DNA of 34,466 bases from Streptomyces sp. SBT349 (GTDB lineage Bacteria > Actinomycetota > Actinomycetes > Streptomycetales > Streptomycetaceae), in NCBI RefSeq assembly GCF_001083795.1, contig NZ_LAVK01000032.1:1-34466 (forward strand), in the 5' to 3' direction. Shown here in pieces: positions 12,663 through 16,479 of this stretch (position 1 is the first letter of the stretch; every line of letters starts with the position of its first letter). The notes beneath the pieces were generated by a model. That model saw nothing but the letters and a program-made list of their open reading frames with translations, did no database searches and was not told the DNA's origin. Position numbers and translations under genes: made by a program.

Positions 12663-12917
12663 ATGAAGGACGGAATCCACCCCGAGTACCGGCCGGTCGT
12701 GTTCCGGGACCGGGCCGCCGGCTTCGCCTTCCTCACCAGGTCGACCGCGACAAGCGACCGGACGATCGAGTGGGAGGACGGCAGGACGTACCCCGTCATC
12801 GACGTGGAGACCTCCTCGGCCAGCCACCCGTTCTATACGGGGACGGCGCGCGTGCTGGACACCGCGGGGCGCGTGGAGCGTTTCGAGCGCCGCTACGGCA
12901 AGCGCGAGGACGGCTGA
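12663..12917 (+). CDS. rpmE2: 50S ribosomal protein L31 type B (zinc-free paralogue)
   Basis: An 84-residue L31 of type [17 protein letters not shown] start, then SRTIEW-like [29 protein letters not shown] and an [12 protein letters not shown] tail. It contains no cysteine, so it lacks the zinc-binding ribbon of the normal L31. Such copies replace zinc-containing L31 under zinc starvation and so free zinc from ribosomes; in Streptomyces and many other bacteria they are Zur-repressed. ATG 12663 has GAGAGGAGAG a suitable distance upstream; the frame is open further upstream, but that part is leader. Its stop overlaps the next gene's ATG (TGATG). The promoter at 12551-12578 bears a Zur-like box. 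Confidence 0.95.
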
Positions 12918-14131
12918 TGCCGTCCGCGGCACTGCCCGTCGTGCTCGTCGGCGGGCTGCACGCCGACGCGCGCGGGGCCGCCGTCCAGCGGCTGCTGCGC
13001 GCCCTGCCCGGCAGCGTCGCGCTCCACCACGACCTGTCCGGGGCCGCGGGGCACCGGGTCGCCAGCAGCGTCAGGGACGCCGGCGGCGTGCTCGGCAGCA
13101 GGACCGCCCCGCTGGTGAACGACTGCGCCTGCTGCGCGCTTCGGGCCGACCTGGTGCCGGAGCTGACGCGGCTGGCGGACGGCGGCGGGTGCACGGTCGC
13201 CGTCGTGGAGCTGTGGGACTCCGTGGAGCCGCGGTCCATGGCCGAGGTGATCGCCGCGAACGCCGCCGGGCGCCTGCGGCTGGCCGGGGTCGTGACGGCG
13301 GTGGACCCGGCCCTGGTGCCGGCCTATGTCGGCTGCGGCGACGACCTCGCCGACGGCGGCCTCGCCACCGCGGCGAACGACCGCCGCACGGTCGCCGACA
13401 CCTGGGCGCGGCAGATCGAGTACGCCACGGTCCTGGCCCTCGCGGACGAGGGCGACGGCGGTGGCGGCAGTGGCGGCGGTGGTGACGTCGGTGACATCGG
13501 CGGCGGGGGGTCGTGGGCCGCGACGGACGAGGATGTGGCGCTGCTGGCCCAGTTGCACCCCACGGCGCACCGGGTGGCGGTCGCGTCGGGGGCGTTTCCC
13601 CGGCTGGCCCTCTCCGGGTTCGACGTGGCGGAGGCGGCGGCGCGGCAGCACCCCGCCAGCGCGCTGCTGCCCCAGGAGGCCGAGGAGCACGGGGTCTCGA
13701 CGATGGTGTGGCGCAACCGGCGACCGTTCCACCCGGTGCGGCTGTACGCGGCGCTGGAGGAGCTGACCTGTGCGGCACCGCGCAGTCGCGGCCGATTCTG
13801 GCTGGCGGACCGCCCGGACACGCTGCTGTCGTGGGATGCTGCCGGGGGCGCCCTGTGCGTGGACAACGCCGGGCCCTGGCTGGCCGCACTGCCCGACGCC
13901 GCCTGGGAGATGGTTCCCCCGGTGCGCCGCGTCGCGGCGGCCCTCGACTGGGATCCGGAGCACGGCGACCGCGTCCAGCACCTGGTCTTCACAGGTCCGG
14001 GCCTTGACCGCGGCGCGCTGCGGGGCGTGCTGGCGTCCTGCCTGCTGACCCGGAGCGAGTACGCGGCGGGGCGGTCCTCGTGGCGCCGGCTGGCGTCGGC
14101 CTTCGACGATCTCCTGGATCCCGTCTCCTGA
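12917..14131 (+). CDS. CobW/COG0523-like protein with CxCC motif but no P-loop
   Basis: A 404-residue COG0523 relative. The metal-binding motif is present as NDCACCALR (C70, C72, C73). The C-terminal CobW_C domain is clear (STMVWRNRRPFHPVRLYAAL, SRGRFWLADRP, GDRVQHLVFTGPGLD). The N-terminal strand PVVLVGG is followed by LHADARG where GTPases have GxxGxGKT, and no NKxD motif is seen; ANDRRTV sits near that position. GTP binding is therefore doubtful. A low-complexity Gly/Asp insert (residues ~180-200) separates the two halves. The ATG overlaps the L31 stop codon, so both are made under zinc starvation. By context it is probably a zinc-handling or metallochaperone-like protein, yet the usual GTP-driven mechanism cannot apply. 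Confidence 0.85.
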   Translation: MPSAALPVVLVGGLHADARGAAVQRLLRALPGSVALHHDLSGAAGHRVASSVRDAGGVLGSRTAPLVNDCACCALRADLVPELTRLADGGGCTVAVVELWDSVEPRSMAEVIAANAAGRLRLAGVVTAVDPALVPAYVGCGDDLADGGLATAANDRRTVADTWARQIEYATVLALADEGDGGGGSGGGGDVGDIGGGGSWAATDEDVALLAQLHPTAHRVAVASGAFPRLALSGFDVAEAAARQHPASALLPQEAEEHGVSTMVWRNRRPFHPVRLYAALEELTCAAPRSRGRFWLADRPDTLLSWDAAGGALCVDNAGPWLAALPDAAWEMVPPVRRVAAALDWDPEHGDRVQHLVFTGPGLDRGALRGVLASCLLTRSEYAAGRSSWRRLASAFDDLLDPVS

Positions 14132-14291
14132 GCGGTCCCCGACGCCCCTCAACGGTCATGGAACGTGCGGTTCCGCGGCCGTCGTACCAGGAGCCGAATT
14201 GCGCCATTCGCTGGTGCGAGGGAACCCGGAGGGGGGTTCGGCCGTCTCACAGGTGGCCTGGACGACGCGTAGTGACATCGCAACGGCGTGT

Positions 14292-14321
14292 CGTGCACGT
14301 GCATTGTCCCGTGCATATGCA
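14292..14321. promoter_or_regulatory. Bipartite operator A before the DUF397 gene
   Basis: Two perfect 10-bp palindromes, TGCACGTGCA (14294-14303) and TGCATATGCA (14312-14321), are spaced 18 bp centre to centre. Over 29 bp, 25 positions match the reverse complement of the site at 15451-15479, with the same spacing. A -10-like TATGCT follows at 14334-14339, so the second palindrome would cover the -35 position. Confidence 0.6.
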
Positions 14322-14408
14322 AGTGAACGAGGTTATGCTCAGGGATAGTTGGGTCCCATGGTGATCGTGGGGTCCCTTTGCACCACTCGCACGACCCGGG
14401 AGAGACCA

Positions 14409-14645
14409 GTGCCCGACGCGTACAACGGCATCGCCGCACACAAGCTCCGGGATGTGGTGTGGTTGAAGAGCAGCCACAGCAACTCACAGGGCACCTGCGC
14501 GGAGTTCGCCAAACTACCCAGCGGCGACGTGGCCATGCGCAACTCGCGCTTCCCCGAGGGCCCCGCGCTCGTCTACACCTCGGCCGAGTTGGAGGCGCTG
14601 CTGCGCGGCGTCAAGGAGGGCGAGTTCGACCACTTGATCGGCTGA
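14409..14645 (+). CDS. DUF397 small regulatory protein
   Basis: A 78-residue DUF397 protein: AAHKLRDVVWLKSSHSNSQGTCAEFAKLPSGDVAMRNSRFPEGPALVYTSAELEALLRGVKEGEFDHLI shows the family's W-KSS-S---G-CVE core and the R-S--P-GP-L-F--AE---F--G--GEFD end. These proteins are partners of XRE/DUF5753 regulators in Streptomyces (as in the whiJ and abaA loci), where the pair controls development or antibiotic production. GTG 14409 with GGGAGA just upstream is chosen; earlier starts add non-conserved residues. It converges with the HATPase gene. A bipartite operator about 90 bp upstream is shared with the XRE promoter. Confidence 0.92.
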   Translation: MPDAYNGIAAHKLRDVVWLKSSHSNSQGTCAEFAKLPSGDVAMRNSRFPEGPALVYTSAELEALLRGVKEGEFDHLIG

Positions 14646-14736
14646 CACCCGCTCCCGGCCGCCGCGTTCCCGCCCGGTTCCGCGCTTGGCGATCCCCGCC
14701 TCAGCGATCCCTCGCCGATTCCTCACCCTCGGCGAC

Positions 14737-14750
14737 CCCGGGCTTCCGGG
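14737..14750. terminator. Small hairpin between convergent genes
   Basis: CCCGG-GCTT-CCGGG lies just before the converging stop of the HATPase gene (14754) and after the DUF397 stop (14645). No T-run follows on either strand, so a terminator role is only a guess from position. Confidence 0.3.
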
Positions 14751-14753
14751 CCC

Positions 14754-15275
14754 TCAGCCTCCTGGGCCGCCGGTTCTGAACACCGCCCAGACGACCTTGC
14801 CGTGCCGCTCGCCCGCGAGGGTGCGCCAGCCCCAGCCGTCACTGAAGCACTCCACCAGGTGGAGCCCGCGGCCGGACTCGCCGACGCCGTCCATCTCGCC
14901 GACGCGCGGCGCCGACTTGCTCGGATCGTGCACGGCGCAGATCAGCCGGCCCGAGCAGCGCATCAGCTCCAGCTCCACGGTCGGGTGCCCGGCCGGTTCG
15001 CGGCCCGCGGCACCGCCCGCGGACCCGTGGGTCCTGGGCTCGTACGCCGTCGGCCGGCCCGCGACGCCGTGCCGCAGGGCGTTGGTCACCAACTCGGAGA
15101 CGACCAGGGCAACCGCGTCGAACTGCTCGGGGAGCCGCCATCCGTGCAGGGTGCTGCGCGTGAAGTCGCGGGCGCGACGGACGGATTCGGGCCGCGCCGC
15201 GAGACCGAGAGTCGCGGTGCCTGACAGAGTGTGAAGGTCCACGGGCGGGAACTGATGCCCTAATGAGTCGAGCAT
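14754..15275 (-). CDS. HATPase-domain regulator (anti-sigma / RsbW-like)
   Basis: A 173-residue single-domain GHKL ATPase. Visible are the N-box ALVVSELVTNALRHG, G1-like AVHDPSKSAPRVGEM, G2 ESGRGLHLVECFSDGWGW and a typical KVVWAVF end. A disordered Gly/Ala/His-rich loop (YEPRTHGSAGGAAGREP) is inserted after the N-box. Streptomyces genomes encode many such proteins beside DUF397 and XRE/DUF5753 genes; most are uncharacterised, some act as anti-sigma kinases. ATG 15275 is selected because AAGGA lies 7 nt upstream and it gives the compact family N-terminus; the frame opens up to 15335. It is divergent from the XRE gene, with shared operator B between them. Confidence 0.88.
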   Translation of the reverse strand: MLDSLGHQFPPVDLHTLSGTATLGLAARPESVRRARDFTRSTLHGWRLPEQFDAVALVVSELVTNALRHGVAGRPTAYEPRTHGSAGGAAGREPAGHPTVELELMRCSGRLICAVHDPSKSAPRVGEMDGVGESGRGLHLVECFSDGWGWRTLAGERHGKVVWAVFRTGGPGG

Positions 15276-15449
15276 GGGCGTTCCTTTGGTCCCCATGGCG
15301 CGGCACTCCTGGCGTTGCGGCGGCACTGCTGTCAACGGTGGCCGACCGTCCGGAACAGCCCCCGTACCCCGTCCTCGCCCGGCGAGCGGTCGAGGCCGTA
15401 CTGCCGCGCCGGCTGGCGGCGCGTAGAACTCATGCTTCCCAAGGCTTAC

Positions 15450-15477
15450 GGCAAATGCAAGGGAAGATGCACGTGCA
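15450..15477. promoter_or_regulatory. Bipartite operator B between HATPase and XRE genes
   Basis: GGCAAATGCA (15450-15459) and TGCACGTGCA (15468-15477) are spaced 18 bp. The first has one mismatch to the TGCA-N2-TGCA pattern, the second is perfect and identical to half of operator A (14294-14303). The -10-like TGTAAT of the XRE gene lies 18 bp further on (15496-15501), so the perfect palindrome covers its -35 position. Confidence 0.6.
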
Positions 15478-15570
15478 CGAAAAAATTTGATCCACTGTAA
15501 TCATGCGCACACCCAATGAAGCGCTGAGATGGCAGACTTCGCTCCGGCAGTCGATGAGGGCAGGGAGCAC

Positions 15571-16479
15571 ATGAGTACTCAGCGGATGGCGGGGGGAACC
15601 GATACCAACGTCACCGGCGGTGAGCAGGCCAGCGGGTCCATGGTCCGCCGGATCCTGCTCGGAACGCAGCTGCGGAGGCTGCGCGAGGCCTGCGGGGTGA
15701 CCCGCGAGGAGGCCGGGTATTCGATCCGGGCGTCGGAGTCGAAGATCAGCAGAATGGAGCTGGGACGCGTCAGCTTCAAGCCGCGCGACGTCGCGGACCT
15801 GCTGACTCTCTACGGGGTGACCGACGAGGCCGAGCGCGAACCGCTGCTCGGCCTCGCGCGTTCCTCGGGCAGGTCGGGGTGGTGGCACAGCTACAGCGAT
15901 GTGCTGCCGAGCTGGTTCCAGACCTATGTCGGCCTGGAGGCGGCGGCGGAGCGGATCGGGACCTACGAGCTTCAGTTCGTCCACGGCCTGCTCCAGACCG
16001 AGGCGTACGCGCACGCGGTCGTCGTCAGCGGGCACAAGGGGACACCGTCGCGTGCCGAGGTGGACCGCCGGATCGCGCTGCGGCTGGGGCGGCAGAAGCT
16101 GCTGGTCGCGGAGAGCGCGCCGCATCTGCACTGCGTGCTGGACGAGGCGGCGCTGCGGCGGCCGTTCGGCGGCAGCGAGGTCATGGACGAGCAACTGGGG
16201 ATGCTGCTCGAGTTCTCCGAGCACCCCAATGTCACGCTCCAGGTGGTGCCCTTCAGCAAGGGCGGGCATGTCGCGGAGTCGGGCGCGTTCACGCTGCTGC
16301 GCTTCGCGGAGATGGAGCTTCCCGACCTGGTCTACGTGGAGCAGCTCACCGGCGCGCTCTACCTGGACAAGCGCGAGGAGGTCGCCGCCTACCAGGTCGT
16401 GCTCGACCGGCTCGGCGCGGAGGCGCTGGACGAGAGCGGCACGCGCCGCCTGATCCGCGACATCCGCCGGGCGCTCTGA
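15571..16479 (+). CDS. XRE-family regulator with DUF5753 domain (WhiJ-like)
   Basis: A 302-residue DNA-binding regulator. The helix-turn-helix is near the N-terminus (LGTQLRRLREACGVTREEAGYSIRASESKISRMELGRVSFKPRDVADLLTLYGV), preceded by a flexible Gly/Thr-rich stretch. DUF5753 fills the rest: WWHSYSDVLPSWFQTYVGLEAAAERIGTYELQFVHGLLQTEAYA, a histidine/arginine-rich middle and VQVVPF-like LQVVPFSKGGH. ATG 15571 is preceded by GAGGGCAGGGAG; an earlier ATG at 15529 is possible. With DUF397 and HATPase proteins it forms the classic Streptomyces trio related to whiJ. It is the best candidate to bind the TGCA-N2-TGCA operators at both ends of the locus, controlling itself and the DUF397 gene. Confidence 0.93.
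   Translation: MSTQRMAGGTDTNVTGGEQASGSMVRRILLGTQLRRLREACGVTREEAGYSIRASESKISRMELGRVSFKPRDVADLLTLYGVTDEAEREPLLGLARSSGRSGWWHSYSDVLPSWFQTYVGLEAAAERIGTYELQFVHGLLQTEAYAHAVVVSGHKGTPSRAEVDRRIALRLGRQKLLVAESAPHLHCVLDEAALRRPFGGSEVMDEQLGMLLEFSEHPNVTLQVVPFSKGGHVAESGAFTLLRFAEMELPDLVYVEQLTGALYLDKREEVAAYQVVLDRLGAEALDESGTRRLIRDIRRAL

Follow-up and report, generated by a model that had tools for sequence, protein, structure and literature searches.

A Conserved Direct-Repeat Element, Probably an Operator, at the HATPase and DUF397 Promoter Regions of a WhiJ-Type Locus in Streptomyces

Introduction

Streptomyces sp. SBT349 carries, on a stretch of 34,466 nucleotides (contig NZ_LAVK01000032.1, analyzed over this whole length and hereafter called the window), a locus of three neighboring genes that encode a DUF397 protein, a HATPase, and an XRE/DUF5753 regulator. 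Here, we describe a repeated DNA element that stands at this locus twice, in inverted orientation: once upstream of the DUF397 gene (site 1) and once between the HATPase and XRE genes, pointing at the HATPase gene (site 2). The repeated site is probably the binding site of a regulator. In the reading that we favor, to which we give a probability of about 0.5, the XRE protein would bind both arrays, activate the HATPase and DUF397 genes, repress its own gene, and be subject to feedback from the DUF397 product.

Many paralogues of WhiJ, BldB, and AbaA in Streptomyces affect development and antibiotic production. In S. venezuelae, all five abaA paralogues rise when BldB is lost, and it has been speculated that each neighboring WhiJ mediates this effect (PMC10294661; here and below, statements about cited papers refer to the parts of them that were available to us). 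The window's locus is the SCO3421 (XRE), SCO3423 (HATPase), and SCO3424 (DUF397) locus of Streptomyces, and sites 1 and 2 would be the DNA side of the BldB/WhiJ/abaA link for this locus.

Results

The Paired Motif and Its Rarity in the Genome

The inverted paired motif is confirmed and exceeds what chance would give. Its arms, at positions 14291-14320 and 15451-15480, are inverted repeats identical in 26 of 30 positions (87%), which is also the best value for any separated inverted 30-mer between positions 13800 and 16000; in 60 dinucleotide shuffles of this 2.2-kilobase region, the best value averaged 21.35 and never exceeded 23. A preliminary description of this DNA, which had given the recurrence as 25 matches over 29 positions, is thus borne out on this point. 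It had further counted four palindromes of the form TGCA-N2-TGCA. Three of these are exact instances of TGCANNTGCA (beginning at 14294, 14312, and 15468; 0.28 would be expected in the window, and none of 100 shuffles reached three), but the fourth unit, at 15450-15459, reads GGCAAATGCA and is, with its one mismatch, an imperfect palindrome.

The window's own genome (8.06 megabases [Mb] in 691 contigs) contains the 28-base-pair (bp) pattern without mismatch at site 1, with one mismatch at site 2, and nowhere else at up to one mismatch. A third place, at two mismatches, is uninformative because the reversed control pattern has 26 places at up to two mismatches. The core of the motif, TGCACGTGCA, occurs five times in the 8.06 Mb, two of them at this locus (reversed control, 11). 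The same genome yields 31 DUF5753 and 32 DUF397 matches; when 30 loci of each family were compared, the window's own included, the core was found at none of the 29 paralogous loci of either one.

The three remaining cores of the genome lie within a coding sequence (adenosine-deaminase-like by eye), at the locus that we label L259, and near a GGDEF gene. The last, at L258:1501-1510 (C222:51065-51074), is a lone TGCACGTGCA that precedes a gene for a GAF-PAS-GGDEF protein (diguanylate cyclase) by approximately 20 bp. Since this core is retained in 2 of 30 genus loci, the GGDEF gene is a possible lineage-specific extra target.

Conservation among Streptomyces Orthologues

We compared the orthologous loci of the best 80 of 539 relatives, and a site was counted as present when at least 20 of the 27 consensus bases matched. 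Site 2 is found in all 80 and site 1 in 79; the sole locus without site 1 (L048) has no detectable DUF397 gene in its stretch. The preliminary description had proposed such a survey and named absence of the motif from orthologous loci as the outcome that would count against it; the motif is present. An XRE orthologue (E ≤1e-90) exists in 294 of 295 genus genomes, and 265 of the 295 have at least one match to the pattern at up to one mismatch, some of these being simple (TGCAGG)n-type repeats. Both sites, slightly altered, are nonetheless there in all 14 examined of the 30 genomes that lack a strict match.

Anatomy of the Array

The consensus of the site is TGCACG TGCATC TGCCC(T/A) TGCATC TGC. 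At sites 1 and 2 alike, positions 1-10 scarcely vary (each is kept in 79 or 80 of the 80 rows, the site-1 profile including one row, L048, that is no genuine site). As a separate unit, the second palindrome of the preliminary description does not hold up: across the genus it fails at site 2, where its last A is found in 2 of 80 loci, and it belongs instead to an array of 12-bp direct repeats. When site 1 is matched against itself, the score is 0.68 at lags 12 and 24, 0.53 and 0.59 at lags 6 and 18, and at most 0.28 at the other lags up to 24; at site 2, TGCATC is repeated at positions 7 and 19. In terms of its sequence, the element is a TGCACGTGCA core followed by head-to-tail 12-bp units, more than it is two palindromes.

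The array has a regular spacing to the -10 box of the DUF397 promoter. A survey of 95 loci, of which 94 were usable (none was found in L048), gave a distance from the first base of the site-1 core to the -10 box of 40 in 69 loci, 41 in 3, 52 in 11, 64 in 6, and 76 in 5; the spacing is thus 40 plus a multiple of 12 in 91 of the 94. To judge from these spacings, the end of the array next to the promoter is fixed, and extra units are added at the opposite end, always by multiples of 12 bp. The longer arrays do not represent 22 independent events because arrays of equal length often come from close relatives. The five loci in which the site-1 array is longest (core and -10 box 76 bp apart; L057, L075, L230, L233, and L236) fall into two groups that differ inside the array.

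Promoter Geometry at the Two Sites

Given a 17-bp spacer from the conserved -10, bases 18-23 of each site would lie at the -35 position. The preliminary description had set one palindrome of each site over a predicted -35. A strict sigma-70 consensus scan of 14150-15600 found no promoter, so that the putative promoters here are read from conservation alone. At site 2, A42 (79 of 80 loci), A45 (79 of 80), and T46 (80 of 80) stand at the same distance from the core as does the -10 of site 1. Across the loci, the putative HATPase -10 reads AACCAT, which is poor, and TTGCAT at site-2 positions 18-23 is a possible -35. The inverted orientation of site 2 fits an aim at the HATPase promoter, with a spacing to the -10 equal to that of site 1 for DUF397. 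In the clade of the window, a TGTAAT or TGTAAC box precedes the XRE gene; with this box as the -10, the putative XRE -35 would lie close to the outer end of site 2 (by eye). The remaining Streptomyces loci compared do not keep this -10 candidate.

Some smaller features accompany these promoters. A conserved TGAAC precedes the DUF397 -10 (14324-14329, site-1 positions 31-36), and an AGTTGAC-like stretch lies near the expected transcription start (14347-14353, site-1 positions 54-60); the repeat bound by the S. venezuelae regulator WhiJ9 begins, on its other strand, with GTTGAG, which may be compared with this stretch. A leaderless micro-gene after site 2, suggested by a conserved ATG at positions 45-47, was considered and rejected: the downstream frames vary in length and sequence, and several loci have ATA or GTG in place of the ATG. 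For these reasons, we read this ATG as conservation at the DNA level.

The Core beyond the Genus

Outside the genus, the core is retained in two further families of the order and several others of the class. The loci of one family (f3) have both sites, with a 1-bp displacement of the second unit at the HATPase site; two further f3 homologues, L212 and L214, are without the core. A draw from the class gave an XRE match at E ≤1e-70 in 39 of 148 genomes, of which 28 do not belong to the genus. For 20 of the 28, the best locus was examined, and the core is there in 18 of these loci (it is missing from L246 and L250).

A larger set of 72 loci, chosen by XRE similarity, comprises 12 from the order, 20 from the class, and 40 further, more distant ones; it includes one Streptomyces paralogue (L291), and its gene starts are extrapolated from tblastn. 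The core occurs in 47 of the 72 loci, at 60 sites. For as many as 53 of these sites, a HATPase or DUF397 gene starts no more than 300 bp downstream, where 6.9 would be expected at random in the same loci; two of the other seven are upstream of XRE only and five are upstream of none of these genes. Where a HATPase or DUF397 gene was detected, 46 of 54 loci have the core, as against 1 of the 18 loci in which neither was detected, the latter being more distant homologues.

The number of cores mostly follows the promoter regions in the loci that have cores. A single core stands between divergent DUF397 and HATPase genes (L263, L266, and L267), or between HATPase and XRE where DUF397 follows XRE (L211, L252, L264, L268, and L269), and two cores are found where HATPase and DUF397 are apart (L213 and its kin, L255, L290, and L295). 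In L290 and L295, the cores are at HATPase and DUF397 and none is near the XRE start.

The Probable Binder

When the presence of the core is mapped on the XRE tree (100 rows, quick method), it requires nine changes versus approximately 33 for shuffled labels, with 0 of 500 shuffles as low, a clustering that is inflated by near-copies. Among loci with an XRE identity of at least 49%, the core accompanies the recognition helix ESKISRMEL in 31 of 31 cases and the helix DSKISR in none of 5; in a predicted model, residues 70-77, which make up this segment, form helix three of the helix-turn-helix (HTH). BldB, for its part, showed no DNA binding by surface plasmon resonance (SPR) on its own promoter or by chromatin immunoprecipitation sequencing, according to the available part of PMC10294661. 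By elimination and by co-inheritance, the XRE protein is the likeliest binder, and we consider it very probable that it binds both sites.

The preliminary description had attributed the motif to one regulator, probably the XRE/DUF5753 protein, in control of all three genes. The first half of this proposal is backed by comparison: the core is missing at the paralogous loci compared from the same genome, is clustered on the XRE tree, and stands at the HATPase and DUF397 promoters in distant relatives. The second half is retained for HATPase and DUF397, whose promoters have the sites, but control of XRE itself would not be obligatory, as L290 and L295 indicate.

Possible Sigma-E and bldA Inputs

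In 28 of 94 loci, the sigma-E type pattern GGAAC-N16..18-CGTC occurs no more than 150 bp upstream of site 1; its reversed form occurs in 0 of 94, and random segments match in 13 of 1900. The sco3424 gene belongs to the sigma-E regulon and has a mapped site (PMC6767563). That published site is exact in 2 of 392 genus genomes and within two mismatches in 3 more; in the four of these five genomes that were examined, the operator core begins 86 bases after its first base, and the core is followed by TTATGATCC and then by a DUF397-like start (by eye). The window has its own GGAAC-N17-CGTC in place of the published sequence. SCO3423 is among the sigma-E targets detected only in ethanol-stressed cells (PMC10771440). 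The window's HATPase gene has a TTA at codon 5, and a TTA is found in 69 of 81 loci. Sigma-E would raise DUF397 in envelope stress, and the TTA codon would gate the translation of the HATPase.

Features of the Locus

Coordinates are collected in table 1. The XRE gene start is backed by a conserved ATGGCAGACT-like stretch in the clade of the window (by eye). The protein has an N-terminal XRE HTH followed by DUF5753, as the WhiJ-type class demands, and both DUF397 and HATPase neighbors are present.

Table 1. Genes, Predicted Operators, and Putative Promoter Elements of the Window's Locus
Feature	Position	Strand	Remarks
Sigma-E type promoter upstream of site 1	14221..14246	+	GGAAC-N17-CGTC, pattern match
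Site 1, predicted operator upstream of DUF397 gene	14294..14321	+	Core TGCACGTGCA at 14294-14303, then 12-bp units
-10 box of DUF397 promoter	14334..14339	+	TATGCT in window, mostly TATGAT in relatives
DUF397 (BldB-type) gene, SCO3424 orthologue	14409..14645	+	PF04149, 63 bits
HATPase (AbaA-type, anti-sigma-like) gene, SCO3423 orthologue	14754..15275	-	PF13581, 43.9 bits
Putative weak -10 of HATPase promoter	15432..15437	-	AAGCAT in window
Site 2, predicted operator between HATPase and XRE, pointing at HATPase	15450..15477	-	Core at 15468-15477
Putative -10 of XRE promoter	15496..15501	+	TGTAAT, by eye at about one offset in window's clade
XRE/DUF5753 regulator gene, WhiJ paralogue, SCO3421 orthologue	15529..16479	+	PF13560, 62.7 bits; PF19054, 200.3 bits

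The predicted model of the XRE protein has a mean predicted local distance difference test score (pLDDT) of 74.4. In this model, the DUF5753 part comes near the phospholipase-D-like fold, with Z scores of 10.8 for NucT (131 residues), 10.6 for TrmBL2 (122 residues), about 10 for PLD3, and about 9-10 for Zucchini. Foldseek gave a best E of 7.5e-4 with a template modeling (TM) score of 0.29, and no sequence relative was found in the PDB at E 0.01. The domain may presumably be a sensor, as in TrmB-type regulators.

Directly upstream of the locus are a gene for ribosomal protein L31 (12663-12914) and a CobW-type gene (12902-14128), a pairing known from zinc-starvation clusters; we take this gene order to stand beside SCO3424 as well. 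SspH (PMC9137472) is a different HATPase, SCO1241, encoded at another locus.

Discussion

Activation or Repression

The way in which the element might work can be outlined from the case of WhiJ9. This S. venezuelae regulator binds three direct repeats and is needed for the activation of iosA, and loss of whiJ9 doubles whiJ9 transcription (PMC10294661). By analogy, activation together with autorepression by the XRE protein is our preferred scheme. The XRE protein would dock on the core and the adjoining head-to-tail units up to the -35, and it would do this at two promoters, that of DUF397 through site 1 and that of HATPase through site 2, both of which would thereby be controlled. From the outer end of site 2, it could limit its own transcription. 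It would therefore resemble WhiJ9 at iosA/whiJ9, activating HATPase and DUF397 and repressing its own gene, while the DUF397 product would feed back negatively on it. We infer both the sign of control and this feedback; the role of the DUF397 product as partner of the XRE protein, which the preliminary description had also suggested, is drawn from the WhiJ/BldB literature.

The same binder could act with the opposite sign. The XRE protein would then repress by blocking the -35 of the DUF397 and HATPase promoters and of its own, and the DUF397 product would relieve this block, as the classical model of WhiJ has it and as in autoregulation of the type II toxin-antitoxin kind. The overlap of the operator with the -35 position of the DUF397 and HATPase promoters speaks for this reading, WhiJ has been described as repressing until its DUF397 partner releases it (PMC4255298, PMC6262351), and DUF397/XRE pairs have been proposed to be toxin-antitoxin pairs (PMC2701414), although at this locus the two genes do not form the single operon of a type II system, the HATPase gene lying between them on the opposite strand. 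Yet both promoters look weak alone, having no TTGACA-like -35 and, for HATPase, a poor -10; the arrays are extended only away from the promoter; and WhiJ9, the WhiJ paralogue studied by SPR, is required for the activation of its neighbor (PMC10294661). We regard repression as a real but somewhat doubtful alternative. Activation is preferred because of the WhiJ9 analogy, the want of a good -35 at both promoters, and the growth of the arrays only away from them.

Alternatively, TGCACGTGCA could be bound by some other regulator that acts in trans, such as a global developmental factor, the XRE protein being a mere neighbor. The core upstream of the GAF-PAS-GGDEF gene speaks for this, since its existence makes targets outside the locus possible. 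But the core is rare in the genome, the GGDEF site is poorly kept in the genus, the core is nearly absent from the homologues that lack both HATPase and DUF397, and its distribution agrees with the XRE tree and partly with the recognition helix; such a factor is unlikely. That the repeat should be a structural or replication-slippage product and no operator is very improbable: slippage would give whole 12-bp steps in array length, but hardly a core that is nearly invariant in orthologous loci and found beside the same genes in other families, or a full pattern that recurs nowhere else in the genome at up to one mismatch.

Several observations weigh against activation by the XRE protein as we have outlined it. 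The strict promoter scan was negative and the HATPase -10 is poor. No lag-12 excess was found within 330 bp upstream of 30 DUF5753 loci of the own genome (29 paralogues and the focal locus; L161 gave no tblastn match), although the focal locus itself was negative, so that the test is weak. The core is missing from 8 of the 54 loci that have HATPase or DUF397, including L300, which has all three genes, and L246, and it is found at DUF397 only in L245. The directional tail in L213 does not face the DUF397 gene; outside Streptomyces, the activator geometry is therefore not universal. Helices near ESKISRMEL predict the core poorly (ESKISRLEL, 13 of 20; HAKISRLEL, 5 of 10). The WhiJ9 repeat, a 10-base consensus CGXXCTCAAC (PMC10294661, J Bacteriol 2023), is unlike the TGCACGTGCA/TGCATC found here and is not matched by the consensus TGCACGTGCATC TGCCCTTGCATC TGC, and the WhiJ9 site is 113 bp upstream of the iosA start, unlike the sites described here. 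Three CGNNCTCAAC at a 12-bp pitch occur in 7 of 101 genomes at up to two mismatches, and a control also matched several, which leaves this comparison uninformative; the best match (L206) has no XRE or DUF397 gene among its open reading frames (by eye).

A Possible Stepwise-Evolving Operator

The regular growth of the arrays invites a broader, more tentative proposal, which we think quite possible. The XRE protein would nucleate on TGCACGTGCA and spread over the 12-bp lattice (about three to six units), whose stepwise evolution would provide a gain control on a promoter of fixed geometry. This arrangement, in which every promoter region of HATPase and DUF397 has its array, would predate the split of several families of the class and represent an ancestral WhiJ/BldB/AbaA circuit that is fed by sigma-E and bldA (TTA).

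For the most widespread of these loci, the analysis offers an exact predicted operator and a rule of promoter geometry. The predicted direct target set is small (HATPase, DUF397, and perhaps XRE), with a link to sigma-E and bldA. A recognition code, the helix ESKISRMEL with TGCACGTGCA, becomes testable across the family.

Comparison with Known Systems

The preliminary description had stated that the operators of most such trios are not described, and with this we agree: one has been published, that of WhiJ9 (PMC10294661). In the literature covered (open-licence PubMed Central), no operator was found for the SCO3421-SCO3424 locus of S. coelicolor, which is the same locus as ours, nor do the available parts of these papers describe an operator or target of its regulator. 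The core was also searched as a word, and among the matches listed, none concerned an actinobacterial regulator by title. Scr1/Scr2 (SCO4441/SCO4442) and other XRE-DUF397 pairs belong to the same protein families and have positive effects on antibiotic production (PMC6262351, PMC10364602). They are different paralogues, however, and the available text of these papers gave no operator sequence under motif, palindrome, or binding site; that of PMC10364602 does not name SCO3421-3424.

The nearest relative is the WhiJ9 operator. As here, a WhiJ-family regulator stands beside a DUF397 (bldB paralogue) gene, with direct repeats between whiJ9 and the neighboring target; head-to-tail direct repeats in the whiJ intergenic region are present in the window as well, with a 12-bp period. 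The three WhiJ9 repeats were tested on 34-bp duplexes (PMC10294661), which by arithmetic would fit a 12-bp pitch. The WhiJ9 system is known from one locus of one species, its target IosA is not a HATPase, and the available part of its description mentions no second site at the DUF397 gene (PMC10294661). The WhiJ-type direct-repeat operator as such is thus already known from one case; new, as far as we have searched, are the sequence of the element described here, its occurrence as a pair with one site each for HATPase and DUF397, the rule of 12-bp steps, and a core that is shared across families.
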